Positions 1 through 41,918 of a stretch of DNA of 44,080 nucleotides are shown one piece after another (the stretch's first letter is position 1; every line of letters begins with the position of its first letter). The translations under genes were made by a program, and so were the position numbers. Under the pieces are notes generated by a model. That model did not search any database. It had not been told where the DNA came from and worked only from the letters and a program-made list of their open reading frames with translations. Origin of the DNA: Candidatus Oscillochloris fontis (GTDB taxonomy: Bacteria; Chloroflexota; Chloroflexia; Chloroflexales; Chloroflexaceae); contig NZ_RYFD01000038.1 in the NCBI RefSeq assembly GCF_004138135.1, positions 1-44,080 of the forward strand, given 5' to 3'.

Positions 1-74
1 TCTTGGTTTTTGTTCCTACTTCCATGATGACACAAAAGAGCTTCCTTGGCTGTTTTCTTAGCTTGAGGGGTATA

Positions 75-94
75 GGGCGCATCGCGATGCGCCC
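75..94. repeat. 20-bp perfect palindrome, GCATCGCGATGC core
   Basis: A perfect palindrome with core GCATCGCGATGC, followed by CCCCTAC, lies in the 146 bases upstream of the first gene. The same core recurs at about 3417-3433 and 3649-3665. It resembles the CCCCTAC-ended intergenic repeats found elsewhere in the window. Nothing else is recognised in positions 1-146. Confidence 0.6.
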
Positions 95-146
95 CTACGG
101 ATGGGATGCCGGGCATTCAATGGGGTTCACACAAAGGCGAGGAACC

Positions 147-23986: not shown

Positions 23987-24061
23987 TAAGAGGGTGCGAA
24001 CGCGAACCTACGATTTGCGTGTACCTGTTTATGCTTGGGTAAAACGCAAATGACAATGAGG

Positions 24062-25525: not shown

Positions 25526-26059
25526 AATGTCTCACTACAAGACAGGAGCTATCGCAATGGTATCAGCATGGTTCAAATGCGCATGACCACTGGTTCCACA
25601 GGCCAACATAGCCCCCGGTAGTATTGTGTAATTAGAGAAGCTATCGTGCGTCACAGTATACCATTAACCCTATACCATTAACCCTGTGCATAGGTACAGA
25701 GCAGGGCATATGCAAAGTCACCTCCGGTGGGGGTGCGGGGGCGGCTGCGCCGCCAAAACACCACAAAAAATGGGGCTTGGGATGCAGCCCCAAGGACTTT
25801 GCACATGCCCTGAGGTACAGAGGGTGTGACGATACTGCACCTTGATGAATGACAAAAATCTGTGAAATCTGTAACCAGCATGTAACTACCATCGGCTATA
25901 CTCGTCATGTCCTGTGCAATACCTGGGCAGCGGCCCATGTGTCAGCCGATGTCAGCGGAGACTTGCGGCTTATTTGCCTTCTCTGATCTGCGGCGAGCTC
26001 GTGCGCCCTGCTATCATTTGGTCTCTTAACACTAGAAGTCTGTGAAAGGAAGAGGATTC
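25526..26059. other. gene-free region between STAS sensor and aceA
   Basis: This 534-base region contains two tandem copies of TATACCATTAACCC (25657-25684) and one mini-element (25702-25812 with flanking 10-bp repeats). Toward aceA, TATCAT (26012-26017) could be a -10, but no convincing -35 accompanies it. No gene was recognised. Confidence 0.7.
25702..25812. mobile_element. 111-bp mini-element with TIRs and 10-bp target duplication
   Basis: The ends are CAGGGCATATGCAAAGTC (left) and, inverted, CAGGGCATGTGCAAAGTC (right, ending 25812). The direct repeat AGGTACAGAG is immediately adjacent on both sides (25692-25701 and 25813-25822), a perfect 10-bp target-site duplication. The interior has GGGGCGGCTGCGCCGCC and CCACAAAAAA motifs but no gene. 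It is a non-autonomous (MITE-like) element whose transposase is not in this window. Sisters are at 32365 and 7459. Confidence 0.85.
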
Positions 26060-27334
<1,275 letters not shown>

Positions 27335-27374
27335 GCAAATCGCGGTGGTGCGCACTGCAATGTGCGCACCACCC

Positions 27375-27448
27375 GTAGGGGCAAAGCATCGCCTACCATG
27401 TAGCCTTGGGAACACTGACTGGATTGGCAGGCGATGCTTCGCCCCTAC
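27375..27448. repeat. GTAGGGGC(G/A)AAGCATCGCC inverted repeat
   Basis: GTAGGGGCAAAGCATCGCC at the left and its inverse GGCGATGCTTCGCCCCTAC at the right flank about 36 bases. It belongs to the same family as 32548-32610, 34630-34813 and 37516-37588. Confidence 0.75.
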
Positions 27449-27451
27449 TGG

Positions 27452-27473
27452 GGCGGCGTAGCCGCCATTTTTT
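27452..27473 (+). terminator. intrinsic terminator after aceA
   Basis: GGCGGC / GCCGCC stem with a GTA loop, followed by A and six T. It lies between the GTAGGGGC repeat and the aceB -10 box. Confidence 0.55.
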
Positions 27474-27477
27474 CGGG

Positions 27478-27505
27478 TATAATAGAAGTGGAATGCTTTT
27501 CCACT
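27478..27505 (+). promoter_or_regulatory. aceB -10 box with adjacent dyad
   Basis: TATAAT (27478-27483) is followed at once by the dyad AGTGGAA (27487-27493) / TTCCACT (27499-27505). No good -35 is seen. The dyad would cover the transcription start, so it may be an operator or a 5' leader hairpin. Confidence 0.5.
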
Positions 27506-27532
27506 ATATGAAAAAATCAAAAGGACACCCGT

Positions 27533-29125
27533 ATGACCACACTCCCCACCGGCATGAGCATCAGCGGGACGATCAGCCCCGAATTTGCCGCGATCCTCAC
27601 CCCAGAGGCGCTCGAACTGGTTGCTACGCTGCACCGCCGCTTCAATGCCCGCCGCATCGAGTTGCTGGAGCGCCGTCAGCAGCGCCAAGCCGAGCTAGAT
27701 GCAGGCAAGTTGCCCGATTTCCTGCCAGAGACGGCGGAGATTCGGGCGGGGGATTGGACGATTGCGCCCTTCCCTGCGCAGCTTAACGACCGCCGCACCG
27801 AGATTACTGGCCCAGTGGATCGCAAGATGGTCATCAATGCGCTCAACGCCGGGGCCAAGGTCTTTATGGCCGACTTCGAGGATTCGAGCACGCCGACCTG
27901 GGAGAACACGATCCAGGGCCAGATCAATCTGCGCGATGCGTTGCTGCGCACGATCTCCTTTAGCTCGCCTGAGGGCAAGCAATATGCGCTGAAGAGTGAC
28001 GTGGCGGTGCTCTTTGTGCGCCCGCGTGGCTGGCACCTGAACGAGAAGCATGTCACCGTGGATGGTGAGGTGGTGTCGGGCGGGATCTTCGACTTTGCGC
28101 TCTACATGTTCCACAATGCGCGTCAGGCGATCAGCGTGCAGGGTGGCCCCTACTTCTACCTGCCCAAGATGGAGAGCCACCTGGAGGCGCGCCTCTGGAA
28201 TGCGATCTTCGTGGCGACCCAGGAGGCGCTCGGTTTGCCCCAGGGGACGATCAAGGCCACCGTGCTGATCGAGACCATCCTGGGGTCGTTTGAGATGGAT
28301 GAGATCCTCTACGAGTTGCGCGAGCATTCGGCGGGTCTCAACTGTGGCCGTTGGGACTACATCTTCTCGTGTATTAAGAAGTTCCGCCACAACCCCGATT
28401 TTGTGTTGGCCGACCGCGCCCAGGTGACGATGACGACCCACTTTATGCGCTCCTACTCGCTGTTGGCGATCAAGACCTGCCACCGCCGCAAGGCGCATGC
28501 GATGGGCGGGATGGCGGCGCAGATTCCGATCAAGAATGATCCGGCGGCCAACGAGGCCGCACTGGCCAAGGTGCGCGCCGATAAGGAGCGCGAGGCGAGC
28601 GATGGCCACGATGGCACCTGGGTGGCCCACCCCGGTCTGGTTGCGGTGGCGTTGGAATCCTTCGACAAGCACATGCCGACCCCCAACCAGATCGAGCGCA
28701 CCCGCGATGATGTGCAGGTAACCCGCGACGACCTGCTCAACTTCGGGCCGGAGGGGCCGATCACCGAGGCGGGTCTGCGGCTGAACATCAATGTCGGTAT
28801 TCAGTACCTTGGCTCGTGGTTGGCGGGCAATGGCTGTGTGCCGGTCTTCAACCTGATGGAAGATGCGGCGACGGCGGAGATCTCGCGCGCCCAGATCTGG
28901 CAGTGGATTCGCAGCCCCAAGGGCGTGCTCGATGATGGACGCAAGGTGACGGTCGAGATGTTCCGGGCGCTGCTGCCGGAGGAGTTGGCGAAGATCAAGC
29001 AACTGCTTGGCGCAGACTATAGCGCGGGCAAGTACGAGGAGGCGGCGCAACTCTTCGATGAGATCACCACGAGTGATGAGTTTGTCGAGTTCCTGACCCT
29101 GCCGGGGTATGCGCGGATTGATTAG
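27533..29125 (+). CDS. aceB: malate synthase (A type)
   Basis: 530 residues; ATG 27533 follows AAAGGA. It condenses glyoxylate with acetyl-CoA to malate, second step of the bypass. Family motifs: [23 protein letters not shown] (catalytic Arg), [18 protein letters not shown] (metal-binding Glu), [24 protein letters not shown], and [19 protein letters not shown] with the catalytic aspartate. The length of about 530 residues identifies isoform A rather than the 720-residue G form. It works with isocitrate lyase immediately upstream and acetyl-CoA synthetase at 7603. No sign of truncation. Confidence 0.96.
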
Positions 29126-29141
29126 GCTCTGATGCAACATT

Positions 29142-29186
29142 TCCTCGTGCTAGTGCGGTATAGAAGTAACCAATCTAGCACGAGGA
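29142..29186 (+). promoter_or_regulatory. hairpin that includes the radC ribosome-binding site
   Basis: TCCTCGTGCTAG (29142-29153) and CTAGCACGAGGA (29175-29186) are perfect 12-bp inverted arms with a 21-base loop. The right arm holds most of the GAGGAG ribosome site of radC (29182-29187). Folding in mRNA would hide that site; alternatively the dyad is an operator. The loop contains TATAGA. Confidence 0.55.
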
Positions 29187-29193
29187 GAACTGT

Positions 29194-29904
29194 ATGCAGC
29201 CAGCGCCCCAGAGCTACCACCTCCGGATTAAAGAATTCCCTCCCGACTCCCAGCCGCGTGAACGGCTACGCGATGCTGGCCCCGCCGCCCTCTCCGATGC
29301 TGAACTGCTCGCCATCCTGCTGCGCGTGGGCGTGGCGGGCACCAACGTTCTGCAACTCGCACAGCAAATCCTGGCCGAACATGGCGGATGGGTCGGGCTG
29401 CAACGCGCCGATTACAGCGAACTCTGCCGCCGTCACGGGGTCGGCGAGGCCAAAGCGGCGACACTCAAGGCAGCATTGGAGATTGGTCGCCGCATCCTGA
29501 TCACCGGCACCGATGCGCGCCCGCAGATTCGCTCCCCCACCGATGTCGCCAACCTGCTGATGGTCGAGATGGGCCACTTGGATCAGGAGCACTTGCGTAC
29601 CGTGCTGCTCGACACCAAGAACCGGGTGCAGCAGATCAGCACGATCTATGTCGGCTCGGTCAATACCGCCGTGATCCGGGTGGGTGAGGTCTTCCGCGAT
29701 GCGGTGCGCAAGAATAGCACCGCGATCATTATGGTACATAACCACCCGTCGGGCGACCCGACCCCCTCAACCGAAGATATCCTGGTCACCCGCCAGATCG
29801 TCGAGGCGGGCAAGTTGCTCGATGTTGAGGTGCTCGATCACCTGATCATCGGGCGCGGACGCTATGTGAGTATGCGCGAGCGCGGGCAGGGGTTTAGTGG
29901 ATGA
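29194..29904 (+). CDS. radC: RadC family JAB-domain protein
   Basis: 236 residues. ATG 29194 lies six bases after GAGGAG. The N-terminal part contains a helix-hairpin-helix-like UPF0758 region ([35 protein letters not shown]). The C-terminal JAB/MPN domain has the metal ligands [14 protein letters not shown] and an upstream glutamate (VGEVFRDAV). Despite the name, a direct role in DNA repair is unproven; JAB domains resemble deubiquitinating metalloproteases and RadC is often mobile-element associated. It is placed 68 bases after malate synthase with its own leader hairpin, and ends in a strong hairpin. Confidence 0.93.
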
Positions 29905-29911
29905 TAGGCGA

Positions 29912-29942
29912 GGTTCCCGGAAGGTATGACCTTCCGGGAACC
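29912..29942. terminator. 14-bp perfect hairpin between convergent radC and MFS genes
   Basis: GGTTCCCGGAAGGT and its exact complement surround the loop ATG. It starts eight bases after the radC stop and ends 11 bases before the MFS stop. No U-run is present; a bidirectional stop is inferred from position. Confidence 0.6.
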
Positions 29943-29952
29943 CTAGGGGCAT

Positions 29953-31818
29953 TTAGATTTCAGAAACGGTGGGGTGGGCTGGCTCGCTAGTGCGGCGCAG
30001 CGGCAGAGCGGGGATGAAGAATGCGAGGATCAAGGCGACCACCGCCAACACAATCGCATAGCGGTAGATGTTGGCGATACTGTCGGTAAAGGCGTGCTTG
30101 ATCGCCAGATCAACCTCCTGGCCCAACTGCTGGCCCTCGTGCAGCGCCGTAGCCTCGGCAGTGTCAAGATTCTGGAGCACCTGCGCTAAGGTCTGGGAGC
30201 GCATCTCGGCGGGCATCCCCGGTAGCGCCTCTAGCAACGCCCGCAACTCCGGGGTGGTCTGCGGATCGGCTTGGAGTACCTGAATCGCGGTCGGGTCAGC
30301 GGAGCCAAGCGCCTGGGTCAGGAGGGTACGCTGGGTGGCAAAGCGTTCTTCAATCGCCGTGGTGATGCGCGCCACCGGATTGAGCGCCTCGCCGGTGCTG
30401 CCTTCGCCCCCGGCGGTGCCGTTGCGCAGCAGCGCCGGATCAAACTGCGCCGCCATTGCCGGGGGCAGTTTGGCCTGAATCGGAGCCAAATTGGCGGCCA
30501 AGGAGTTGGTCAGGGTGACGGTGAGCACCGCCCCAAAGACTGCTGAACCGAGTACTTGGCCGATCTGCTGGAAGAACTGCCGACTGGCCACCGCCGTGCC
30601 GACATATTCACGCGAGACCGCGTTCTGGATCGCGAGGTTAAGCATGGGCAGTGATGGGCCGAGACCAAAACCGAGCGCGATCATCTGCACCCGTATCAGC
30701 CAGATTGAGGAATCAATCTGGATAGTGGTGAGCCAAAAGAGCGCAGCCACCATGATCATCAGGCCGACAATGATCGCGCCTTTGTAGCGCCCCAAACGCT
30801 GTACGATGGCCGAAGAGACCACCGAGCCAAAGACGAGACTCAAGGTCAGCGGGATAAGCGTGGTGCCCGCTTCGGTAGCGCTCACCCCCAGCACATTGAC
30901 GAGGTAGAGCGAGAGGAAGAAGATCGCCGCGAAGAGCGTGGCACCGACCGCGACACCGATGATATTCACCAGTGTGTAGGTGCGATTGTGAAAGAGGTGC
31001 AGCGGCAGGATGGGAGCCACGGCGCGCTTCTCGGCGACGATGAAGAGCACCAGACCCACGACGCTCAAGGCGAGCAAGCCCAGGATCAGCGGCGAAGTCC
31101 AGGCGTGCTGGTTCTTATCAAAGGTGAGCGCGAGCAGCAGCGGAACCACCGCCACCACCAACGTAAAAGCCCCGAAGAAATCAATCGGGCTGCGCACGCC
31201 ACTATCCAACTTAGGCATCTTGAGCAGAATAAAGACCATCGCCACCAGACCGACCGGCAGATTCACATAGAAGACCCAATGCCAACTGATCAGGTCGGTC
31301 AGTAGGCCACCAGCGAAGGGGCCAATCACGCTCGCCAGCCCAAAGGCGGCCCCGAAGAGACCCATATAGCGGGCGCGTTCGGCTGGCACAAAGAGATCGG
31401 CGGGGATGGCGAAGGCGGTCGAGGTGAGCGCAGCCGCCCCCAAGCCCTGGATACCACGGAAGATCACCAACTGGAGCATGGACTGCGAGAGGCCACACAA
31501 GACCGAGGCAAATAGAAAGACCGCGATCCCAAAGAGCAGAATGATCTTGCGCCCATAAATGTCGGAGAGCTTGCCATAGATCGGCACCATCGTGGTACTG
31601 ACCAGCAGGTACGAGGTGGAGACCCACGCCAACAACTCGATCCCGTGCAGGTCGGCCACGATGCGCGGCAACGCGGTCGAGACAATCGTCTGATCGAGGG
31701 ACGAGAGAAAGAGACTGAGCAAAACACCGACCAGAATCAGCATCTTAGTACGCTGATCGAGCAACGTCGTGTAATCAATACGGGTACCAGTCGGTTGATT
31801 GATTGTGGTTGTAGCCAT
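29953..31818 (-). CDS. MFS drug efflux transporter, DHA2 (EmrB/QacA) family
   Basis: 621 residues with about 14 predicted transmembrane helices, using proton motive force for export. Motif D1 LDQTIVSTALP near the first helix, motif A GKLSDIYGRK and motif C GAAFGLASVIGPFAGGLLT are all present, as expected for antiporters. An extended hydrophilic segment of about 130 residues lies before the last helix (PAMAAQFDPALL to ATALHEGQQLGQEVDLAIKHAF), as in related EmrB-type pumps of Gram-positives and Chloroflexota. It lies 12 bases downstream of a MarR regulator in one operon, so it is likely derepressed by the drug or phenolic ligand of that regulator. Confidence 0.92.
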   Translation of the reverse strand: MATTTINQPTGTRIDYTTLLDQRTKMLILVGVLLSLFLSSLDQTIVSTALPRIVADLHGIELLAWVSTSYLLVSTTMVPIYGKLSDIYGRKIILLFGIAVFLFASVLCGLSQSMLQLVIFRGIQGLGAAALTSTAFAIPADLFVPAERARYMGLFGAAFGLASVIGPFAGGLLTDLISWHWVFYVNLPVGLVAMVFILLKMPKLDSGVRSPIDFFGAFTLVVAVVPLLLALTFDKNQHAWTSPLILGLLALSVVGLVLFIVAEKRAVAPILPLHLFHNRTYTLVNIIGVAVGATLFAAIFFLSLYLVNVLGVSATEAGTTLIPLTLSLVFGSVVSSAIVQRLGRYKGAIIVGLMIMVAALFWLTTIQIDSSIWLIRVQMIALGFGLGPSLPMLNLAIQNAVSREYVGTAVASRQFFQQIGQVLGSAVFGAVLTVTLTNSLAANLAPIQAKLPPAMAAQFDPALLRNGTAGGEGSTGEALNPVARITTAIEERFATQRTLLTQALGSADPTAIQVLQADPQTTPELRALLEALPGMPAEMRSQTLAQVLQNLDTAEATALHEGQQLGQEVDLAIKHAFTDSIANIYRYAIVLAVVALILAFFIPALPLRRTSEPAHPTVSEI

Positions 31819-31830
31819 AGTTCCTCAGGT

Positions 31831-32280
31831 TTAAGGATGGGGTTGCAGCGCCGCAATCGCCTCTTCAAGCAGCGTGCTCAGGCGTTGGACGAGATCTGGC
31901 GGCAAGCGATGAAGCTGCTGTGAGGCATCATTGATACGGATCTCATAGAAGCGCACCACCACATCGCGCCCCTGATCGGTGATCGAAACCGTCTTGTGGC
32001 GGCGATCCTGTTCGGCTTCGCGGCGCTCGACATAGCCGCCCTGCACGAGTTGATCAACCAAGTGGCTGGTGGTAGCCATCGCCAACCCCAGGTGGTCGCC
32101 GATCTGTGAGATCGAGGCCGAGTCGGTACGGTGGAGGTAACTGAGCGTCACCAAGCGCGGGAGTGAGAGATCGGCCTCGCGTAGCAAGGCCATCACATCG
32201 CCGATCAGTTGGACATTCAGCAGCCCATTGAAGCGCATCACCAAGCAGGCGAGATGTTTGATGTCGGAAGTTGGTTCCAT
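31831..32280 (-). CDS. MarR-family transcriptional regulator
   Basis: 149 residues. Winged helix with SISQIGDHLGLAMATTSHLVDQLVQGGYVERREAEQDRR; the DRR wing motif is intact. MarR proteins bind palindromes as dimers and release DNA on binding phenolic or hydrophobic ligands. It precedes the DHA2 efflux gene by 12 bases, the classical local-repressor arrangement. Nested inverted repeats begin seven bases upstream of its ATG (32287-32321). No Shine-Dalgarno is seen before the ATG, so a very short or leaderless transcript is possible. Confidence 0.9.
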   Translation of the reverse strand: MEPTSDIKHLACLVMRFNGLLNVQLIGDVMALLREADLSLPRLVTLSYLHRTDSASISQIGDHLGLAMATTSHLVDQLVQGGYVERREAEQDRRHKTVSITDQGRDVVVRFYEIRINDASQQLHRLPPDLVQRLSTLLEEAIAALQPHP

Positions 32281-32286
32281 ATTCTG

Positions 32287-32321
32287 AATAGTTCGGACTT
32301 TCTAACTATTTGATAGAAAGT
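32287..32321. promoter_or_regulatory. candidate MarR operator (nested inverted repeats)
   Basis: AATAGTT (32287-32293) / AACTATT (32304-32310) and ACTTTCTA (32297-32304) / TAGAAAGT (32314-32321) form overlapping perfect dyads just upstream of marR. Size and placement suit autoregulation. Confidence 0.55.
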
Positions 32322-32364
32322 ACCATATTTCTCGCGTATGTGCAAGATGAGCTACTCCATCATC

Positions 32365-32516
32365 CAGGGCATGTGCAAAATCACCTCCGGTGGGGGTGCG
32401 GGGGCGGCTTCGCCGCCCCCGCAGAACTTTTTTGTGGTGTTTTGGCGGCTACGCCGCCAAAACACCACAAAAATTGAGGTTTGGGGCACAGCCCTAATGA
32501 CTTTGCACATGCCCTG
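32365..32516. mobile_element. 152-bp mini-element with TIRs and 10-bp target duplication
   Basis: Ends are CAGGGCATGTGCAAAATC (left) and inverted CAGGGCATGTGCAAAGTC (right). The perfect direct repeat CTCCATCATC abuts both ends (32355-32364 and 32517-32526). The interior carries two hairpins, GGGGCGGCTTCGCCGCCCC and a TTTTGGCGGCTACGCCGCCAAAA type. There is no gene inside. It is a sister of the element at 25702. Confidence 0.88.
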
Positions 32517-32547
32517 CTCCATCATCACTGGGTTCCGCGATCACCCC

Positions 32548-32610
32548 GTAGGGGTGCGCCAACCTCGTTCAAGTGCCCCTGCTCCATGGCGGGCGATGCT
32601 TCGCCCCTAC
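32548..32610. repeat. GTAGGGG...CCCCTAC repeat
   Basis: It starts GTAGGGGTGCGCC and ends GGGCGATGCTTCGCCCCTAC; the inner CCTGCTCCATGGCGGGCGATG is shared with the right part of the 34630-34813 array. Confidence 0.65.
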
Positions 32611-32637
32611 TACGATGCACGTGCGTTGAGTATGCGT

Positions 32638-32643
32638 TATAAT
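32638..32643 (+). promoter_or_regulatory. candidate -10 box for the jacalin-HhH gene
   Basis: Perfect TATAAT lies 61 bases upstream of the ATG; no convincing -35 at the usual distance. Confidence 0.45.
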
Positions 32644-32704
32644 GTACAAGGTAAGGTAGCGATGCAAGAATCGGCAGGATACAACAATAGGAGAGAGACT
32701 CGCA

Positions 32705-33553
32705 ATGTCAGATATTTTGCAGGGGGAGGCAGGTGGCCTAGGGGGCATCCCATTTACAGGCTACGCCATCCCAGAGGGTGCCCGCCTGACCGAGATTCAC
32801 ATCTTCGCTGATCAATTTGTCAATGCACTCCAATTCGTCTATAGCGACGGCAATGGAGAGCGGATCGAGATGGGGCGCATTGGCGGTGAGGGTGGAACGC
32901 ACGATACATTCATCCTCGGCCCAGATGAGCACATCACCATGATCAGTGGTCTGGCCGACTGGTACATCGATCAGATTCGCTTCCACACCAATTTGCGCGT
33001 CTCGGAGACCTACGGTCGTAATGGCACGGCGATGGACTTTGCCCTAGAGGTACCGCGTAACCATGCGCTGGTCGGGCTGTATGGCCGCGCCGATTGGTTC
33101 ATTGATAGCCTGGGGATCATTTGCCGGAAGGTGGAGCATGCGGCGGAGCCTGCCCCAGAGCCAGAGCCTGCCCCAGAGCCAGAGCCTGCTCCAGAGCCAG
33201 AGCCTGCTCCAGAGCCAGAGCCTGCCCCAGAGCCAGAGCCTGCCCCAGAGCCAGAGCCTGCCCCAGAGCCGGAGCCTGCGGAAACCCGCGAGGCGCGACC
33301 CAAGGATTTAGAAAAGATCGAGGGCATTGGCCCCAAGATCGCAGCTCTGCTGGTCAGCAATGGTATCCTCGATCTGAGCGATCTGGCGGTCACACCAGTG
33401 AAGCGCATCAAGGCCATCCTGAGCGCGGCAGGTTCGCGTTACGCCATTGCCGATCCGACCACATGGGCGGAGCAGGCTGCGTATGGGGCACGCGGTGATT
33501 GGGATGCGATGCTGGCCTTCCAGAAGAAGCTGAAGGGCGGACGGCGAGCCTAG
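32705..33553 (+). CDS. jacalin-like lectin domain fused by EP-rich linker to helix-hairpin-helix domain
   Basis: 282 residues; ATG 32705 follows GGAGAGAG. Residues 1-140 show the beta-prism jacalin pattern: [77 protein letters not shown]. Residues about 148-189 are seven EPAPEP units. Residues about 195-235 form a helix-hairpin-helix ([21 protein letters not shown]), and the rest is a helical tail ending in a basic KKLKGGRRA. Jacalin domains bind mannose/galactose-type glycans; HhH domains usually bind DNA or other proteins. No signal peptide is seen, so the protein is probably cytoplasmic. The combination is unusual and its role is unknown. It ends convergently with, and overlaps by four bases (CTAG), the hydrolase gene at 33550. 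Confidence 0.82.
33146..33271. repeat. seven in-frame 18-bp repeats encoding EPAPEP
   Basis: Seven tandem copies of GAGCCTGCCCCAGAGCCA with C/T and A/G variants code for a charged, proline-rich rigid linker inside the jacalin-HhH gene. Copy number is likely variable between strains. Confidence 0.9.
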
Positions 33554-34614
33554 GGCGTAGCCCGTGTCGTAGCCGCCACCATCTGCGCGACAAGTGGGTG
33601 GTGGCGGTAGGGCGGCGGGGTGCGGTAGGGGTAGGTGCGGTTGGTGAGCAGCACCAGCGCGGCTTGAACCTGTGGGATGATCACGATCACGGTGCCGGTG
33701 AAGCCGGTATGGCCTATCGTCCCCGCTGGGGCTGATCCCATAAAGGCGCTTCGATCCCGCGCCCAGCCTAGCCCACTCGCCAGGGGCTGGCCGGTGGGTG
33801 TCCGCATGTGGCTGGTGTAGTCGCGGAAGGCCAGGGCCACCGTAGCTTCACGCAGGATCTGACGCCCGCCCCACGCCCCGCCTTGGAGCCAGAGGCTGGC
33901 AAAACGCGCCATATCGGCGGCGGTGCTAAAGAGTCCCGCATGACCCGCCACCCCACCCAGCGCATAGGCGCTCTCGTCATGCACGACGCCATGCACCAGA
34001 CCTCCGCGCCAGTGCTCGTCCCACTCGGTGGGCGCGATGCGCTCACGCAGGTGTGGCGCGGGGCAGAAGGTGGTGTCACGCATCTCCAGGGGAGCTAGGA
34101 TTAGTTCGTGGATGGCGGCATCAAGCCCAGCCCCAAAGACCGCCGCTACTACTTCGCCCAAGAGCAGGGTGTTGATATTCGCATACGAGAGGTACGTGCC
34201 GGGTGGGTGCAACGGCTCAAGGTGCTGAATGGCGTCCCGAATCCCCGCCGCCCCCGCTTCACGCAGGCTGGAGAGCCGAATTTCTAGCCCGGCGCTATGC
34301 GTGAAGAGATGGCGCAACGTAACCCCATGCGCCCGCATGGCGGGCAGAAAGCGCTGCAACGGATCATCAAGCCGCAACAGACCGGCATCCATCAGGATGA
34401 GCGCCGCAGTCGCCGTGAAAGGCTTGGTCAATGAGGCGATGTCATACATCATCTCGCACGTCACCGGATGGCTACCAGGATCGCCATACATGGTGTTGCC
34501 GTATGCGGCATAGTGGAGTGTCTGCCCGGCACGCTGCGCATGCACAACTGCGCCAGGGAACATGTGGGCGTGGATGGCCTCGTTGACGAGGGTATCTATA
34601 TGCGTAGCGAACAT
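33550..34614 (-). CDS. serine beta-lactamase-like hydrolase (class C/PBP4* family)
   Basis: 354 residues from ATG 34614 ([10 protein letters not shown]); the frame upstream is repeat DNA. The active-site triad motifs are SLTK (S61, K64), YAN (Y144) and HTG (in [10 protein letters not shown]), plus [12 protein letters not shown]. The family (Pfam Beta-lactamase, often called serine hydrolase or esterase EstB-like) includes esterases, D-aminopeptidases and PBP-like enzymes; antibiotic hydrolysis is not implied. No signal peptide is evident, which argues for a cytoplasmic esterase-type role. The stop codon overlaps that of the jacalin-HhH gene in the shared palindrome CTAG. Confidence 0.88.
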
Positions 34615-34629
34615 GCGATAAAAACCTCG

Positions 34630-34813
34630 TAGGGGCGAAGCATCGCCCACAAGCCGCGTTTGGGTTCTCCTGCTCCATGGCCCATAGCGGGCGAAGCATC
34701 GCCCACAAGCCGCGTTTGGGTTCTCCTGCTCCATGGCCCATAGCGGGCGAAGCATCGCCCACAAGCCGCGTTTGGGTTCTCCTGCTCCATGGCGGGCGAT
34801 GCTTCGCCCCTAC
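34630..34813. repeat. three 56-bp tandem repeats inside GTAGGGGCGAAGCATCGCC inverted ends
   Basis: GCGAAGCATCGCCCAC recurs at 34635, 34691 and 34747 (period 56) with CAAGCCGCGTTTGGGTTCTC in each unit. The array begins GTAGGGGCGAAGCATCGCCC and ends with the exact inverse GGGCGATGCTTCGCCCCTAC (34794-34813). It lies upstream of the beta-lactamase-like gene. Confidence 0.85.
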
Positions 34814-34856
34814 AGGATGATCGGGGAACCCAACGATGATCGGGTTTCTTTGCGTC

Positions 34857-37424
34857 TTAGCGCCTTGGCGTCAAGAAGAAATTTGGCAAAAATCCTCGCC
34901 GCAACGCAATCTCCACCACCCAGAGCAGCAGCGCCATACCCACCAGCAGCGGCCACAGGTTGAAGACTCCCGCCCCCACCGGCGTGGTTCGCGCTTCACC
35001 CACTACCACCGGGCTGAGTTGCCCCCCACTGACCTCGGTGATCGCTTGGAGGAGGGTTGCTCCGTCGGTGGGTGCGTGGTCTAGTTGGTACTCCTCGGCC
35101 ACGGGTTGCACATAGCCCACCACATGTTCTTGGCGCTGTCCATCATACAGCACCACGACCGAGACGCAGTACGCGCCGGGGGTGGGTAGAAGTAACTCTT
35201 GGGTATAGCGCCCCGGCGCACTCTGGCGCACATCAAAGGTGCGCGTTGTGCCGTCGGGAAGGGTGATCAGCGCGTTCACCGTCGCCAGATTGATCGGGAT
35301 ACCGCCGGGTTGCGCCGCATCCACGATCAGGCGTGCGCCCCCCGGCTGGGGATCGAGGCGTACCTGAAGCAGCCCGCTCTCTGGGTCGGGGAGGGTGTAG
35401 CGCACCAACTGAGCCAGAAAACGGCTCGTGCCCCCCCAGGCTTGCCACTGGCCCATCCATGCCGGATCGAGGCCGGGTAGCCAGGCCACGGCACGGCCAA
35501 GCCCGTACTGCCAGGTGGCAAGCAGGGGATCACCAGCGGGGGATTCTAAGATCACCTCGGTCTGCGGGCGTCTACTCACCGCCACATAGCCGCCCAGTTC
35601 TGGCAGATCGGCGGGGGCAATGTCGCGCATGAGTTGGTGCGCCTGGGCGAGTTCGGCGCGCAACGCCTGCTCGACCGCCGGATCGGAACCGGCGATCTTG
35701 CTCTCTAGCAGCGTGAGGCGCGGGATGTCAGCGGGTTGATCGGCGTAGTAGTAGCGCCCGCCACCCCACGCGGCAAGTTGCTTGAGCAGCGCGGTGTCGG
35801 AATCGAGACCAATCGCAATCGTCGAGAGGGTGATCTGTTGGCTGCGGGCGGTCTCGACGAGGCGTTGGTAGAGGGCGGTATCGTTGAGGAAGGAGCGTCC
35901 ATCGGTGAGCAGCACGGCGTGACGCACCTTGGTCGGTTGTTCAGCTAACGCAGGCAGTCCCACTTCTAAGGCGCGCTCGATGCGGGTGCCACCGCCACTC
36001 GGCAGGTTAGCGATCTGCTCCTGGATCTGAGCCACACTCAACCCGCCACTAATCAGTTGGAAAGGCACCACCCACAGGGTCTCGGTATCAAAAGCGAGGA
36101 TACCGATCCGATCCTCTGGTTGCAAGGTCTCGCTGGCCAATTGCGCCGCCTCTTTGGCCATATCAAACTTACTCACCCCAAACGAAGCCAACATACTCGC
36201 TGAGCGATCCATAATCAGCAGGAGCGCCACATCACTGCGCTGCGGGCGCGGGGGCGGCTCCATCAGCACCGGCAACACATCGGCCAGCGGGGTATCCTGA
36301 TAGGAGCCGAGGGTAAACGAGGTATGCCCGCCCAGCACCAGCAGGCCGCGCCCTTCACTGCGCACAAATTCGCGCACCGTGGCCATCTGATCGAGACTGA
36401 GCACCGTGGCGGGCAGATCCAGCAGCACCATACCGTCGTAGGCGGCCATATCGGAGATACGCGAGGGCATGCGCTCCGGGGAGATCTGGCTAGTACGCAG
36501 GCCCTCCTGCTCCAACAACTGCGCCAACCTCGCCCCCAATTCAGCCTGATTGGCCACAATCAGGATCGTGGGCGGACGCACCACCGTCGCCGTCGCACCA
36601 GCCTGGTTATTGGCGGCGAAGGTATCGCTCGCATTCGGATTGGTGATCAGTTCGGCCTGTACCTGAATCACCCCCGGAAGCCCCGCACGCTGGCGAACGG
36701 TGAACTGGGTATCGCCGGGAGTCAACATCAAGGCTTGATCGCTCAGGAGTTGGCCATCCACCCAGAGCCGCAGGCGAGCCGCGAGATCGCCGCCCCCCGC
36801 GTCGGGTTGGTAGCGCATAGTGACGACCAGCGGGAACTCCTCGTCGGGGCGCAGCAGGCGCGGGAGATCCACCCCAACAATCGCCGCATCCGGCAGAAGC
36901 GCCGCCTCAAACGGTAGCACATCAATCGTAATCCCCGCCGCCGCCAGTTGCTGCGCCGCAGACAACGCATCATCACGGGTCTGCACACCATCCGAGAAGA
37001 GCCAGATCCGCCCGCCGTTAGGCAAGAGCGCATGCGCCGCCCGTAGGGCACTCGCGAGGTCAGTTGCCGCCGGATCAACCGGAGTAATCGAACCAGCCGC
37101 CACCACCTGTGCGCCGAAGAAGAGCATACGCGCCTCGCCCGGCACCGCCTGCAAAGCCCGTTCAGCCTCCTGGCGCAACGTCACCCGCCCATCTGGCCCC
37201 AGGCTATCCGACTGATCCACCAACACAATCAGCGGCCCATCGGGAGCGACCTCCACCCCCAGCACCGGGTCAGCCAGCGCCAACACCAGCAGCGCCACGA
37301 TGCCCAAGCGCAGCGCCAGCACCGACACGCCCACCCGCAGCCCGCGCCAGCGCCAGAATAGCACGACGCTGGGGAGGAGGAGGAGGAGCCAGAGCAATTG
37401 TGGAGAACGGAGAAGCATGGTCAT
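34857..37424 (-). CDS. membrane-anchored vWA-domain protein with GATase1-like domain
   Basis: 855 residues. N-terminal hydrophobic helices (LLWLLLLLPSVVLFW, LALRLGIVALLVLALADPVL) and a final helix (LWPLLVGMALLLWVVEIAL) enclose a large presumably extracytoplasmic part. Order: a degenerate first vWA-like segment (VLVDQSDSLG near 70); a beta-rich part; a class-I glutamine-amidotransferase-like segment (about 280-385, YDGMVLLDLPATVLS, GRGLLVLGGHTSFTLGSYQ) without the catalytic Cys; a full vWA with MIDAS DRSASM (D406); a second GATase-like part (YVAVSRRP, WQYGLGRAVAWLPGL); and a C-terminal beta domain. It is last in the leftward vWA/DUF58 cluster, separated from the BatA-type gene by a 216-base repeat-bearing gap and with its own -10 box seven bases before the ATG. 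Function: protein-protein or metal-dependent assembly, not established. Confidence 0.82.
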   Translation of the reverse strand: MTMLLRSPQLLWLLLLLPSVVLFWRWRGLRVGVSVLALRLGIVALLVLALADPVLGVEVAPDGPLIVLVDQSDSLGPDGRVTLRQEAERALQAVPGEARMLFFGAQVVAAGSITPVDPAATDLASALRAAHALLPNGGRIWLFSDGVQTRDDALSAAQQLAAAGITIDVLPFEAALLPDAAIVGVDLPRLLRPDEEFPLVVTMRYQPDAGGGDLAARLRLWVDGQLLSDQALMLTPGDTQFTVRQRAGLPGVIQVQAELITNPNASDTFAANNQAGATATVVRPPTILIVANQAELGARLAQLLEQEGLRTSQISPERMPSRISDMAAYDGMVLLDLPATVLSLDQMATVREFVRSEGRGLLVLGGHTSFTLGSYQDTPLADVLPVLMEPPPRPQRSDVALLLIMDRSASMLASFGVSKFDMAKEAAQLASETLQPEDRIGILAFDTETLWVVPFQLISGGLSVAQIQEQIANLPSGGGTRIERALEVGLPALAEQPTKVRHAVLLTDGRSFLNDTALYQRLVETARSQQITLSTIAIGLDSDTALLKQLAAWGGGRYYYADQPADIPRLTLLESKIAGSDPAVEQALRAELAQAHQLMRDIAPADLPELGGYVAVSRRPQTEVILESPAGDPLLATWQYGLGRAVAWLPGLDPAWMGQWQAWGGTSRFLAQLVRYTLPDPESGLLQVRLDPQPGGARLIVDAAQPGGIPINLATVNALITLPDGTTRTFDVRQSAPGRYTQELLLPTPGAYCVSVVVLYDGQRQEHVVGYVQPVAEEYQLDHAPTDGATLLQAITEVSGGQLSPVVVGEARTTPVGAGVFNLWPLLVGMALLLWVVEIALRRGFLPNFFLTPRR

Positions 37425-37431
37425 ACTGGGT

Positions 37432-37437
37432 AGTATA
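37432..37437 (-). promoter_or_regulatory. -10 box seven bases upstream of the vWA/GATase gene
   Basis: TATACT on the minus strand (37437-37432) ends seven bases before the ATG at 37424. No -35 match and no Shine-Dalgarno, suggesting a leaderless transcript. Confidence 0.45.
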
Positions 37438-37515
37438 CACGTTCACCGCCGAGGACGGACGATGCTTCGCCCCTACGCGGTTGAATAATGGGCGATGGGG
37501 TGTACCGATCATCCC

Positions 37516-37588
37516 GTAGGGGCGAAGCATCGCCCTCCAACTTCGTTCGGGTTCCCCGGCCACATGGAGGGCGATGCTTCGCCCCTAC
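37516..37588. repeat. GTAGGGGCGAAGCATCGCC element with 24-bp perfect arms
   Basis: The left arm 37516-37539 and right arm 37565-37588 are exact complements; the centre is CTTCGTTCGGG-rich. A solitary right arm of the same family lies near 37450-37467 (GATGCTTCGCCCCTAC). It occupies the gap between two vWA genes. Confidence 0.8.
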
Positions 37589-37640
37589 TAACAATGGGTT
37601 CACCGCATCACAATGCGTCCAGCCCGTGTGCCCCCCCCAC

Positions 37641-39482
37641 TCAACGCCGCGCATGCACATAGATCCACTCGCCCAAGACCACCGCCAACCCCAAGCCCAC
37701 CAGCCACGGCCAGAGCAACTGCGGATCACGGCGGAGACTCGCCGCTACCGCCGGAGCGTTACGCGCTGCCGGGAGGGCTTGCGGAGCTAAATTGGATTCC
37801 CGCGCCGCGCCGCTATTGACCGCGAGAATCCCCCGGAAGATTTCGCGCTCGCCCGCCAGTTCGCGTACTTCATAGAGGCCGGGGTGATCCAGGTTCAGAA
37901 TCGGGTGGATAGCGGATTCAACAGGAATACGGTGTAGGATACCGTGTGGATCGCGGATCTCGATCAGATCGCTGCGCAGATCAGGACGCAGGGTGAGGCG
38001 TTGCCCAGCTAAGATCGAAGCCGGAAGATCAGCGGGAGCCAGATCGCGCAGGGTACGTGCAAGGAGTAACGGAAAGGCCAACCGGGTGGTCAGGTTGGTC
38101 TGGGCCAGATCCATATTCCAGATCGCCACGTCGCTCTGCGCTACCTGCCCGCGCAGAATGAGCGGCTGTTCGGCATAACTCAGCAACACCTCGGCCCACA
38201 GCGGCGGCGTAATCGGTGCCATCGTCTCTACCACCACCCCACCCAGACTCAGCCCGGCAAAGAGATCTGGTCGAGCCTGAACCATGATCGGCCCCGCCTC
38301 CACCCGCTGCGCTGGCTCCACATCCAATAAGGGCGAGCCAGTCGGCGGATTCAGCACCAACACCGCCCCCGCTGGCCACTGGTTGGGCAAAAAGCCATCT
38401 AGAATAGTGAGATCCGCCTCGGTTACTTCAACAAACGCCCCCGGACTGATCACCTGCACCTCAAGCCCCGGCATCGCCCGCAAGGCGCGTTCGAGCAGCG
38501 CCGGATTCGCACTGACCAGACGGGTGCGCAGCGGGCGGCTGACGAGACTCAGGTAGGCCACATCATCGGCGGGCAGGTCGTCGTTGCCGTCCAACTCGGC
38601 ACGCACGCCGCGCACACCGGGCGGGATCGTCCACACCTGCTCCACCTCCGCCTGGGGCGGGAAATCGAGGCTCCGGGTATCGAGCAGGCGATCATCGGCG
38701 AAGAGGCGTACATTGCTGCGCTGACGCGCATGGCTGTAGTTCGCGGCGCGCAGATAGATCTGCACCATCCCGCCCTGGTTCTGGGGGCGCGCCGCCAGGG
38801 TCAGAATCGCCCGGTTGGGCAGTTCCGTGCCGATAGGCTCCCAGCGCAGCGCCAAGTGGGTAGGGGCGTTACGCAACTCCGTATCGAGAGCGGGCAGCGC
38901 CGCATCGGTCAGCACCACCACCTGACCTGCGGGGCGATGCTGAAGATCGCTGGCCGCCAACGTCAATGCGGTTGCCAGATCGCTGCCCACTCCGGCGGGT
39001 TGCAGTGCCTCGGCAGCCGCCAAGAGGCGACTCACACCCGCCGGGCCAGCCCGATCCACCAGCCGCGCCTCTGGCCCGGCGCTGATCAGGGTCAGCGTGG
39101 CCTGACCGTTCAGCCCCGCCGCCAACGTGCGCAGCCGCGCCCGCGCCGCATCCAAGCGACTCCCCGATCCCGCCGGAGCCGCCATGCTGGCCGAGGTATC
39201 CACGATCACCACCAGATGTTGGGGACGCCCAAAGAGATCGCTCAACCATTGCGGCTGCGCCAAGGCCAGCGCGAGGAAGAACGCCGCCAGCAGATGCAGC
39301 ACGAGTAGCAGCGTCAACTTGAGATGACGCCGACTGAGCGCATCATGGCGGCGCGGCAGGTGCTGCCAGAGCAGCAGCGCGGGCACCACCACTCGCCGCC
39401 GCCGTTCGCGGATCAGGTGCAACACCACAATCAGTGGCAGGCTGAGTAGGGCGAGTAGCCCCAGTGGAACGAGGAGGCTCAT
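37641..39482 (-). CDS. BatA-type membrane protein with vWA domain
   Basis: 613 residues. The N-terminus matches the BatA/aerotolerance-regulator type (MSLLVPLGLLALLSLPLIVVLHLIRERRRR, VPALLLWQHLPRRH, second helix LLLVLHLLAAFFLALALAQPQWL). A vWA domain follows with MIDAS DTSASM (D95), then beta-rich and GATase-like segments (ADLTILDGFLPNQWPAGAVLVLNPP), and a C-terminal helix (LWPWLVGLGLAVVLGEWIYV). Start codon is three bases after the DUF58 gene stop, so they are co-translated. Bat-type proteins usually act with a MoxR AAA ATPase and DUF58 protein in envelope or stress functions; MoxR is not encoded here. Confidence 0.85.
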   Translation of the reverse strand: MSLLVPLGLLALLSLPLIVVLHLIRERRRRVVVPALLLWQHLPRRHDALSRRHLKLTLLLVLHLLAAFFLALALAQPQWLSDLFGRPQHLVVIVDTSASMAAPAGSGSRLDAARARLRTLAAGLNGQATLTLISAGPEARLVDRAGPAGVSRLLAAAEALQPAGVGSDLATALTLAASDLQHRPAGQVVVLTDAALPALDTELRNAPTHLALRWEPIGTELPNRAILTLAARPQNQGGMVQIYLRAANYSHARQRSNVRLFADDRLLDTRSLDFPPQAEVEQVWTIPPGVRGVRAELDGNDDLPADDVAYLSLVSRPLRTRLVSANPALLERALRAMPGLEVQVISPGAFVEVTEADLTILDGFLPNQWPAGAVLVLNPPTGSPLLDVEPAQRVEAGPIMVQARPDLFAGLSLGGVVVETMAPITPPLWAEVLLSYAEQPLILRGQVAQSDVAIWNMDLAQTNLTTRLAFPLLLARTLRDLAPADLPASILAGQRLTLRPDLRSDLIEIRDPHGILHRIPVESAIHPILNLDHPGLYEVRELAGEREIFRGILAVNSGAARESNLAPQALPAARNAPAVAASLRRDPQLLWPWLVGLGLAVVLGEWIYVHARR

Positions 39483-39485
39483 GGG

Positions 39486-40418
39486 TTATGTCAACAATCG
39501 CCGAAGGCGCAGATAGGGCACCACCTGTTGTTCGAGCGGCCAATCGCTCAGAATCGGGGCATAGATCGCCCCACGCCGCGTACATGTATCGGCCAACTCC
39601 GCCTGCCACGCCCGCAGCCCACGTTGATAGGCGGCGAGGGTCTCGGCATCGAGCACCAGTTCCATGCGTTGCCCACTCTCACTATCCTCCAACTCCAGTG
39701 CCCCGTGGAGATCGGGCTGAAGATCGTGGCGATCCAGCAGATGCAGCACCAGCGGTTGCCAACGCGGCGGGCTGAGAGTACGCAGAACCTCCGCCAAGCC
39801 GTGTGGATCGAGCAGATCGGAGCAGAGCACCACCAGACCACCATGGGGGTAGGTGCGCCCATGCGCACGCACCAGCGCCACCAGATCAGTCTGCGGCTGC
39901 GGTTCAAGTGCCTCGATAAAGCGCAGCATCTCGATGCTGCGCGCCTTGCCCTGTGCAGGGCCAAAGGCGGGCAGCGGGCGATCCCCGAATGGCACAATCA
40001 GCAAGCGGTCGCTATGCGCCAACGCCAAATAGCCGAGTGCGGCCACCAACTGCTGCGCAAGGCGCAAGCGCGAGGGAGCGCCAACCACCATACTACGCGA
40101 GACATCCAGCAGCAGATGGACATGCACATCCTGTTCGGCCTCACCGAGACGCAGGAGCACATGATCGTGGCGCGCATAGGCATTCCAATCCACATAGCGC
40201 AGATCGTCGCCGTGGCTATAGGGCCGATGATCGCTCAGGATGCTCGCAGGCAACTGGTGGCGGCTCAGATGCTCACCACTGGCCGGATTGCCACGCAGCG
40301 TGCGCTGAGCTTGCAGGCTCAAACGCTCCATCCGCCGCAGGAACGCCTCATCAAAGAGCGGGCGTTCGGTAGCCGTAGCAGTATTGGTTTTAGGGCGAAA
40401 AATAGTCTTGAACCACAT
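39486..40418 (-). CDS. DUF58 domain protein (vWA-like)
   Basis: 310 residues from ATG 40418 (MWFKTIFRPK); a GTG at 40454 is an alternative. The DUF58 signature YSHGDDLRYVDWNAYARHD (near 60-80) is intact, followed by a vWA-like fold with DVSRSM and VVLCSDLLD. DUF58 proteins are soluble partners in MoxR/vWA gene clusters. The start overlaps the end of the upstream 40390 gene by 29 bases, and the stop is three bases before the BatA-type gene, so the three form a tight operon. Confidence 0.88.
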   Translation of the reverse strand: MWFKTIFRPKTNTATATERPLFDEAFLRRMERLSLQAQRTLRGNPASGEHLSRHQLPASILSDHRPYSHGDDLRYVDWNAYARHDHVLLRLGEAEQDVHVHLLLDVSRSMVVGAPSRLRLAQQLVAALGYLALAHSDRLLIVPFGDRPLPAFGPAQGKARSIEMLRFIEALEPQPQTDLVALVRAHGRTYPHGGLVVLCSDLLDPHGLAEVLRTLSPPRWQPLVLHLLDRHDLQPDLHGALELEDSESGQRMELVLDAETLAAYQRGLRAWQAELADTCTRRGAIYAPILSDWPLEQQVVPYLRLRRLLT

Positions 40419-41631
40419 CACGCAAATCCGCTGGAATACGCAGAGGATCATCACCCGACTGCACCGGGTCGCTACTCAGTTGCGGATCACCCTGCGAAAG
40501 ACTACCACCATTGCCGACACTCTCCGCCTCAGATTCGGCATTGGCCTGTGCCGGAGTTGAGCCATCGCCCTCGGTTGCCAATTCGAGCGGCACCCCATCT
40601 ACCCCCAAGCGCGGCGACTCCTGGGCACGTTGCGCACCGGGGAAGGCACTATCACCCGCGCCACCCGCCTGGGGCATCCCATCCTGTTGGGCTTGATCAG
40701 CCTGCGCAAGATCCTCGATCATATCCGCGAGCGCCTCCAGCGCCTGGGCCGCCTGATCATCACGCCCCGACTGCAAGCCATCCGCCTGCTGACGCAGTTG
40801 ATTGGCCAGATCGGGATTACCCGCCTCGATCCGATTGGCGGCGCGGCGCAACGCATTGCCCAGATCATTGCGGGCGGACTGGCCAATCTGCCCCGCCTGA
40901 TCGGCCAGTTCGCGCAACTGGCGCGCCGCTGTCTCCAGATCACCGCGATCAAGCGCCTCGGCTGCTGGGCGGGTCAAGCTCTGATCGCGCAGCGCATCAG
41001 CGAGCGCCTGCATCACAGCCGGATCGGGCATACTGGGCGCACTCCCCGGCGCAGTGGCGGGCTGCTCCACCAACGGATCGGGCGGGGGCGGCTGAGTCTG
41101 CGGATCAGGAGGAAGAGCCAGCGGCGGCAGCGGCTGAGCCGAGCCAAGCGGCAGCGGCGGCGCAACACCGATGAGCAGCAACATACCGCCCAGCAACAGC
41201 GCAAGCGTCGTGGTCAGCGCTACCTCAGACCAGGGGAAGGAGCGCTGGTGTTCGACGAAACGCACAATCTGGGCCACATTCTGATCGGCCTGCGCACGCA
41301 GATGCGCCGCGACCCCCACCGGGGTCGAATCAAGCTCCAGCGCCGTCGCAAGCTGCTCATGCAGATTGAAGCGCCGGTCGAGACGGCGCGCCACCAGCAC
41401 CGGCTTCAATGGCGGGCGCAGGAGCAACAGCGCCGCCCCCGCCAGACATGTCAGGACGAGCACCGCCAACCACTCCCAGCGCAGTGGCATGTCGAAGAGC
41501 AGCACCGCACCGAGCAGACAACATGCCAACGCCAAACCCAACCAGAGACCACGCAACAGCAGGCGCACCCCACGCCGCGCCCAGCGGTCACTTGCAAGCC
41601 GAGCCAGTTGGATATGTAAGGGATCGTGCAT
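40390..41631 (-). CDS. membrane protein with Pro/Gln-rich helical C-terminus, DUF4175-like layout
   Basis: 413 residues from ATG 41631 (MHDPLHIQLARLASDR). Two adjacent hydrophobic helices (about 27-75), a third near 142-162 (LTTTLALLLGGMLLLIGVA), a Pro-rich linker, then a long Ala/Gln/Asp-rich helical region (EALDRGDLETAARQLRELAD, ANRIEAGNPDLANQLRQQAD, ALEALADMIEDLAQ) and a disordered Gly/Ser/Glu tail. Members with such a layout occur at the head of vWA/DUF58 operons; no catalytic motif is visible. It is the first gene of the leftward operon, starts without a Shine-Dalgarno, and its promoter (41638-41667) places transcription start at the ATG. Confidence 0.72.
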   Translation of the reverse strand: MHDPLHIQLARLASDRWARRGVRLLLRGLWLGLALACCLLGAVLLFDMPLRWEWLAVLVLTCLAGAALLLLRPPLKPVLVARRLDRRFNLHEQLATALELDSTPVGVAAHLRAQADQNVAQIVRFVEHQRSFPWSEVALTTTLALLLGGMLLLIGVAPPLPLGSAQPLPPLALPPDPQTQPPPPDPLVEQPATAPGSAPSMPDPAVMQALADALRDQSLTRPAAEALDRGDLETAARQLRELADQAGQIGQSARNDLGNALRRAANRIEAGNPDLANQLRQQADGLQSGRDDQAAQALEALADMIEDLAQADQAQQDGMPQAGGAGDSAFPGAQRAQESPRLGVDGVPLELATEGDGSTPAQANAESEAESVGNGGSLSQGDPQLSSDPVQSGDDPLRIPADLRDVVQDYFSP

Positions 41632-41637
41632 GTGGGC

Positions 41638-41667
41638 ATTGTACCCGTCGCAGAGCAGGGGCGTCAA
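41638..41667 (-). promoter_or_regulatory. promoter of the vWA/DUF58 operon, predicted leaderless
   Basis: Minus strand: TTGACG (41667-41662), 18 bases, TACAAT (41643-41638), six bases, then ATG 41631. Both boxes are near consensus; start of transcription is predicted at or within a base of the ATG. Confidence 0.7.
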
Positions 41668-41808
41668 TGCAGGTTGGGTTGGAGATTAGGGCATGGGCAT
41701 CGCCCGCAGTCAATGGAAATAATTGGTTAAAAGTGCAAGGGTGGCAAGTTTATTTGTGTATTAACATGCAAACAATACCGATTTTCAATTTCATTACCAT
41801 ATTTTACC

Positions 41809-41836
41809 TTGACAGAACAAGTACCGGTACTATAAT
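41809..41836 (+). promoter_or_regulatory. consensus sigma70 promoter with palindromic spacer, for CHAT/zinc-ribbon genes
   Basis: Perfect TTGACA (41809-41814) and perfect TATAAT (41831-41836) are separated by 16 bases. The last ten spacer bases are the perfect palindrome GTACCGGTAC (41821-41830), a likely repressor site. The surrounding 41690-41918 is distinctly AT-rich compared with the rest of the window. Confidence 0.8.
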
Positions 41837-41918
41837 CACAGACAGGATAAGGTTATTTACTGAATAATTAACAACATTACCTATCGCTCACTACGCTCAA
41901 ACCACTATGAGGTGAACG

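Follow-up and report, generated by a model that had tools for sequence, protein, structure and literature searches.

A jacalin-like lectin domain fused to a mobile helix-hairpin-helix module in Candidatus Oscillochloris fontis, a possible tether between a cytoplasmic glycan and the nucleoid

The stretch of DNA that we analyzed (the window, 44,080 nt of Candidatus Oscillochloris fontis) contains a gene whose product joins a jacalin-like lectin domain to a C-terminal helix-hairpin-helix (HhH) module through an array of EPAPEP repeats. A first-pass annotation had proposed this three-part fusion from the letters of the sequence, and all three parts were borne out by Pfam, TRF, and AlphaFold2. The features of the locus are as follows:

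32689..32693, + strand: AGGAG, a probable ribosome-binding site, read directly and ending 11 nt upstream of the ATG
32705..33553, + strand: jacalin-EPAPEP-HhH fusion gene, 282 aa, ATG start, product without a hydrophobic N-terminus
32726..33118, + strand: jacalin-like beta-prism domain, residues 8-138 (PF01419, PDB phmmer, Foldseek, and motif counts)
33146..33279, + strand: tandem array, 18-bp unit, 7.4 copies (TRF, unit list, and pLDDT of 60-73)
33290..33550, + strand: C-terminal HhH module, residues 196-282 (PF14520, AlphaFold, VIA-align, and occurrence on other host proteins)

The AlphaFold2 model of the full-length protein has a mean pLDDT of 89. Averaged over ten-residue blocks, the jacalin domain scores 88-98, the linker 60-73, and the HhH module 84-98 up to its last two residues; modelled alone, the module reaches 93. 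Structure prediction, the test on which the annotation had staked its two folds, thus modelled both confidently. Since 16 other distinct proteins have the same layout, chance is excluded for the focal fusion, and the possibility of a chance array or spurious ORF is ruled out by these homologues.

The Pfam family Jacalin (PF01419) matched residues 8-138 with 82.7 bits (E 4.3e-23; cut-off 22), and the best PDB match of this domain by phmmer had an E value of 3e-17. Foldseek matched the focal model to plant jacalins (E 2.7e-12). Among the matches listed, single-domain jacalins gave target TM scores of 0.76-0.85, as for the beta-prism I fold, and identity to the structural matches was 20-29% over the 50 alignments listed. 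We take one Gly loop together with D89 and D134 to be sugar-site residues of this fold. The focal protein has Gly loops GGLGG (10-14) and GGEGG (60-64), a degenerate GRNGT (104-108), and distal aspartates at D89 and D134, with N40 in place of the third; thus GGLGG, D89, and D134 are all present, while the third motif is degenerate. Among the 15 aligned members of the family, D89 and D134 are invariant, loop A reads GGxGG in 14, loops B and C do so in 10 each, and the third-motif Asp, an Asn in the focal protein, is kept in 10. Two to three sugar sites also occur in banana lectin and griffithsin, and the pattern of retained residues makes it likely that the jacalin fold here keeps two to three as well. 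In the PDB phmmer alignments, D134 falls on the final Asp of the sequence GDYLDAIG of Parkia lectins, and we presume it to be the counterpart of Asp141 of artocarpin and Asp139 of heltuba. These two residues are named as mannose-binding in a passage of PMC6359319. Because the pocket residues are invariant, the fusion proteins would be expected to bind sugar.

TRF described the linker array (33146-33279) with period 18, 7.4 copies, and 97% matches. As the annotation had counted, seven repeats join the two domains: seven full in-frame EPAPEP units can be read, differing at two positions, both synonymous. The array is probably a disordered acidic spacer. Within a species the array may be prone to changes in length, as the annotation proposed; between species, both sequence and length of the linker vary, from 12 to 323 aa and from a net charge of -75 to +13 over the 15 aligned members. 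Lys/Ala/Pro linkers occur in L029, L030, L032, and L033, mixtures of Ala and Pro in L021, L022, L028, and L031, and long acidic linkers in L023, L024, L025, L027, and L034, and the shortest, of 12 residues, is in L026. Two consecutive EPAPEP units were found in 0 of the 16 other members. Such free variation in length and charge between conserved ends fits a spacer. The long acidic middle regions, about 190-320 aa in proteins of Anaerolineae/Ardenticatenia type (L015, L023, L024, L025, L027, and L034), resemble two alpha/beta repeats by eye; they have no assignable family among the seven Pfam families matched at E <= 0.01 in the 15 members, a set without L015.

The C-terminal module matched HHH_5 (PF14520) at residues 200-238 with 27.6 bits (E 4.3e-6) in the whole protein and with 31.0 bits (E 3.7e-7) when the C-terminus was searched alone, against a cut-off of 27. 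A GIGPK hairpin (207-211) lies between helices and is followed by further helices with the motif DPTTWAEQA and by an LKGGRRA tail. Foldseek with the HhH model returned nothing at E <= 0.001; the highest-ranking entries were HhH proteins. With VIA-align, the module superposed on the HhH domains of Pol theta, NusA AR2, and RadA with Z of 7-9.5, which is moderate for a helical domain; the NusA AR2 structure, a close fold, is in complex with the protein SuhB. Hairpins of the GIGP[KR] type are typical of nucleic-acid-binding HhH motifs. All 17 members of the family carry one, a count that is partly circular because the hairpin also served to find the module. The motif W-x-x-[QE]-A is retained in 16 of 17. 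The net charge of the module ranges from -3 to +4 over 15 members, is negative in seven of them, and is +4 in the focal protein.

A search for the jacalin plus HhH architecture, the check that the annotation had suggested, yielded 17 distinct proteins after removal of duplicates: the focal one, L015, L021-L034, and L080. All except L026, which comes from a 6.3-kb contig binned as gammaproteobacterial, are from Chloroflexota (16/17), the phylum of L015 and L080 having been set by kinship and that of Promineifilum by taxonomy. G495, a genome of the focal protein's family, encodes exactly the L021 protein, which is from a Chloroflexaceae MAG. Both Pfam families were matched at E <= 0.01 by all 15 members of alignment A5; L015 and L080 stand outside alignments A5-A7 and the 15-member counts, and L023, which has masked residues (X), was left out of both structure alignments.

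The lectin gene is patchily distributed. Across 301 genomes of the phylum, there was one jacalin besides the focal one, also with a C-terminal HhH, and in the class of that second jacalin 8 of 199 genomes had a jacalin, four of these with HhH. In the focal order, jacalin was found in 6 of 82 genomes, five of them in the focal family (5/41) and all five with HhH; L084 (G506) was left out of this architecture count. The five other genomes of the focal genus have no jacalin. A scan of genome contigs gave 23 loci, of which 21 were read, 14 with HhH and seven without (L042 and L043, with matches spanning 18 and 22 residues, were set aside).

In a tree of jacalin domains, built without L019, L020, L080, and L084, a branch with support 85/88, recovered in 83% of bootstrap trees, separates the 16 fused proteins from the other sequences. 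Thus, the pairing has lasted through divergence of the module to 35-66% identity. The HhH tree as drawn does not place the jacalin-borne modules in one clade, yet a single clade was not rejected (p-AU 0.287, on a tree from which L029 and a Riemerella row were dropped as long branches). For this reason, we do not claim repeated independent fusion, and a single origin of the jacalin-HhH fusion is possible.

None of the 17 HhH members has a hydrophobic N-terminus, in agreement with the cytoplasmic look that had been noted for the focal protein. Their highest 15-residue Kyte-Doolittle mean is 1.48, compared to 3.14 and 2.35 in two Acidobacteria jacalins, a hydropathy measure that is no signal-peptide predictor. 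Three Acidobacteria proteins (L035, L036, and L037) have two tandem jacalin domains each, and the N-termini of L035 and L037 resemble secretion signals. The exonuclease-endonuclease-phosphatase (EEP) domain is absent from the seven Pfam families matched in the 15 fusion members at E <= 0.01; jacalin-EEP fusions make up 69.6% of bacterial jacalins according to PMC5536079.

We compared neighboring genes in positions 24001-42000 of the window with flanks of up to 4 kb around relatives. No neighbor family was common to more than 5 of the 22 loci and none was shared with the focal locus, which leaves no partner gene as a clue to the cargo; a conserved operon was rejected on the same comparison. Close orthologues of the neighboring serine hydrolase occur in 3 of the 5 other genomes of the genus. 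At L070 and L071, the hydrolase adjoins the same VWA gene, with a different frame at the position of the lectin, and at L072 a different frame also follows the hydrolase orthologue. A phage origin was likewise rejected, as tblastn gave no match to phage records and none was confirmed in viral contigs.

Several other elements of the window were recorded. A palindromic repeat of about 155 bp, dispersed in the genome, lies at 32345-32520, upstream of the lectin gene; at least 39 other long copies with 84-92% identity are present (40 of 382 candidates scored), and the edge of the repeat occurs a second time at 25705-25733. A 56-bp tandem repeat at 34633-34793 (2.9 copies, 100% match) overlaps the 5′ end of the longest serine-hydrolase frame, and similar pieces occur elsewhere in the genome. 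At 3-3053, a single protein combines a NACHT domain (E 6.7e-7) with a C-terminal FGE-sulfatase domain (E 1.4e-44) and recalls conflict-system proteins. The gene at 41919-43796 encodes a protein that resembles CHAT-domain proteases (E 1e-27); PADLOC matched it weakly to BovA and SAVED_CHAT.

Judged by sequence, unrelated host proteins carry the HhH module at their C-termini as a mobile tag. Searching with a profile of the module at E <= 1e-6 gave 25 matches in 17 of 151 Chloroflexota genomes; 21 were read, two were the jacalin fusions L044 and L045, and L058 and L061 were left out. Among the hosts are short proteins in which one membrane-like segment can be recognized by eye (L046, L047, and L049-L052), ribosomal protein bL21 (L048, TIGR00061, E 2.6e-30, and by resemblance L053), and coiled-coil-like proteins, and the focal genome itself encodes an ATP-grasp-like protein with the module (L063). 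In 72,556 plasmid records, the only matches to the profile were in four records of Riemerella, and in three of these the module sits on rplU. The PDB chain of reaction-centre protein-O, 8yy9_O, also matched the profile (E 4.4e-7). The NCBIfam models for bL21, NuoE, and PhaH match L028 and L030 through linker plus module, far below their cut-offs. The focal protein matches these models less well still, among hits to unrelated Pro/Glu-rich models that its linker brings about. Thus, the module is related to those on the phasin PhaH, bL21, and membrane-anchored proteins. The frame of L062 (G144:C162), 659 aa with a membrane-like N-terminus, contains three tandem matches to the module profile; its genome also encodes a jacalin-HhH protein.

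A section of a review reports that PhaM, PhaF, and PhaH bind PHB granules through their N-termini and DNA, non-specifically, through their C-termini (PMC13052382). In the same section, the DNA contact of PhaH is a helix-hairpin-helix domain, PhaM and PhaF use histone-like domains, and the role reported for PhaH is to tie granules to the nucleoid (PMC13052382). Because PhaH is reported to bind DNA and the hairpin is intact, the module of the fusion proteins may by analogy bind DNA.

Our tentative explanation, to which we give somewhat less than an even chance, is that the protein is a cytosolic counterpart of PhaH that carries a lectin as its head and is anchored to the nucleoid. The N-terminal beta-prism would act as a lectin with two mannose/glucose-type pockets, three in many relatives, and would hold a cytoplasmic glycan or a glycan-coated body. 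The disordered linker would serve as a spacer whose chemistry hardly matters, and the HhH module would attach to the nucleoid through non-specific DNA contact, as reported for PhaH and PHB granules. Both folds, the N-terminus without a hydrophobic stretch, and the conserved ends around a variable spacer are observed features of the family that are in keeping with such an arrangement; the tethering role itself we infer. Several observations count against it, among them the low scores with the PhaH model and the lack of a shared neighbor gene. The negative charge of the module in 7 of 15 members makes weak support for DNA binding, the closely similar NusA AR2 has a protein as its partner in the PDB, and such modules also sit on bL21, NuoE, S2, and protein-O, where a nucleoid tether is not obvious.

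Glycogen was considered as the cargo and is not supported in the focal family: strong GlgA (PF08323 above 200 bits; 8 of 41 family genomes overall) was found in none of the 5 lectin genomes and in 8 of the 36 others, a weak test with five lectin genomes of which two are 86-88% complete. In family f58, strong GlgA was present in 4 of 4 lectin genomes. Three genomes (G000, G487, and G494) had PF08323 matches of 59-76 bits, and a GT4-type synthase is possible; in the window, the GT4 gene at 22763-23971 scored 146 bits with glgA_Coryne (cut-off 302) and 151 bits with MshA (cut-off 462). Phosphorylase (PF00343) occurs in 38 of 41 family genomes and is hence uninformative on glycogen.

The tether reading can be widened: one mobile HhH tag on varied cargo-binding heads (phasin, ribosomal protein, membrane anchor, photosystem subunit, and lectin) would serve as a general means of nucleoid attachment, with the jacalin version positioning a glycan-bearing body on the Chloroflexota chromosome. 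We consider this wider form rather doubtful, a little over one chance in four.

The main rival, which we judge unlikely at about one chance in four, is that the HhH module serves generally for docking to proteins or ribosomes and brings unrelated hosts to one common partner. The same distribution over hosts that suggests a mobile tag speaks for it, since the module is C-terminal after flexible linkers on bL21 (L048 and Riemerella rplU) and on the proteins with one membrane segment, and so do the place of NusA AR2 among the closest folds and a net charge near neutral; what it leaves to be explained is the retained GIGP[KR] hairpin, of the type known from nucleic-acid binding. The protein-O study also reports the C-terminal domain of protein-O on NuoE and on subunits of ATP synthase and calls its functions obscure (PMC12079452), a spread that suits docking, while the reported DNA binding of PhaH through its HhH domain (PMC13052382) does not.

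We regard as improbable that the module is a promiscuous tag, gained neutrally or with weak benefit, that has no lectin-specific function. Its spread over unrelated hosts and the patchiness of the lectin gene (in none of the five other genomes of the genus and in 5 of 41 family genomes) would agree with such accretion. However, the position of the 16 fused proteins on one side of a branch (85/88) indicates a long-lasting pairing, and W-x-x-[QE]-A has been retained in 16 of 17 members.

Slightly less probable still is an extracellular lectin, released by lysis or non-classical export and acting in adhesion or aggregation, with an HhH that is incidental or binds biofilm eDNA. Well-studied jacalin-type lectins act mostly on external glycans, and the HhH-less bacterial jacalins L017, L019, L035, L037, and L041 look secreted or anchored by eye, but all 17 HhH members are devoid of the hydrophobic N-terminus. 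A role in defense or sensing, in which the lectin reads foreign sugars such as those of glucosylated phage DNA and the HhH holds nucleic acid, is very improbable: the patchy distribution, the coupling of glucose/mannose-type pockets to a nucleic-acid-type domain, and the NACHT and CHAT genes of the window favor it, but those genes are ~30 kb and ~8 kb away, PADLOC-DB 2.0.0 gave 0 families for the focal protein at E <= 0.01, the compared loci have no conserved defense neighbor, the protein has no effector domain, and the phage searches were negative.

Each half of the fusion belongs to a known family, and the annotation had stated that no standard role was known for the combination. As to role this stands, since our literature searches found no functional study of a jacalin-HhH fusion; the search for 'Jacalin' with 'helix-hairpin-helix' returned one paper. 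The pairing itself is already in print: the Figure 1 legend of a 2017 paper names HHH_5 among the partner domains of jacalin, with the taxon unspecified there (PMC5536079), so the domain pair was already catalogued. For the HhH module, too, a relative has been described, that of the phasin PhaH. To our knowledge, cytosolic lectins of known fold are unusual in bacteria. The cargo of the nucleoid tethers in the review section is PHB and polyphosphate, with no glycans among them (PMC13052382), and the passage on photosynthetic and respiratory hosts calls the function of the HhH tag obscure (PMC12079452). Short, soluble, and well folded, the fusion offers a simple route to the binding partner of this tag.

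The closest relatives of the lectin half are plant mannose/glucose-specific jacalin-related lectins (heltuba, horcolin, banana lectin, and Parkia lectins) and algal griffithsin, which share the beta-prism, Gly loops, and distal Asp motifs; unlike them, the focal lectin is bacterial, cytosolic-looking, and fused to HhH. On the side of the module, bL21 (rplU) of Riemerella and some Chloroflexota carries a similar C-terminal HhH on a ribosomal-protein head, the Riemerella module being 43.8% identical with motifs DPTTWPQQA and LKGGK. Protein-O of the Dinoroseobacter shibae RC-LH1 complex (8yy9_O) also has a C-terminal HhH after a long flexible loop (PMC12079452), but its head is transmembrane.

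The nearest parallel is PhaH of Caulobacter crescentus, which, as far as the review section describes it, has a cargo-binding N-terminus, together with a related C-terminal linker-plus-HhH region; its head is a phasin, whereas that of the fusion is a jacalin beta-prism. The model PhasinPhaH (NF045508) matched residues 150-242 of L028 over profile positions 138-228 (E 5.5e-10, 39.8 bits) and residues 140-223 of L030 over positions 146-228 (E 1.1e-7). The match of the focal protein was weak and partly to the linker (15.3 bits, E 0.017), and TonB and other unrelated Pro/Glu-rich models scored higher; all matches to the PhaH model were far under its cut-off of 250 bits. The N-terminus of the focal protein is jacalin, with the phasin-type granule-binding N-terminus absent. 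Thus, by head and by score, we do not file the focal protein as PhaH, although by analogy it may work like PhaH. PhaF, PhaM, and AlgP share the plan proposed in the same review section, with one end on cargo and the other on DNA (PMC13052382), and they differ in having histone-like DNA-binding parts in place of HhH and PHB or polyphosphate as cargo. On the lectin side, the Deinococcus plasmid jacalin L011 has a Lys/Ala/Pro-rich, histone-like tail without HhH that is comparable to the PhaF type, so that jacalins with the two kinds of tail parallel the alternation between PhaF and PhaH.
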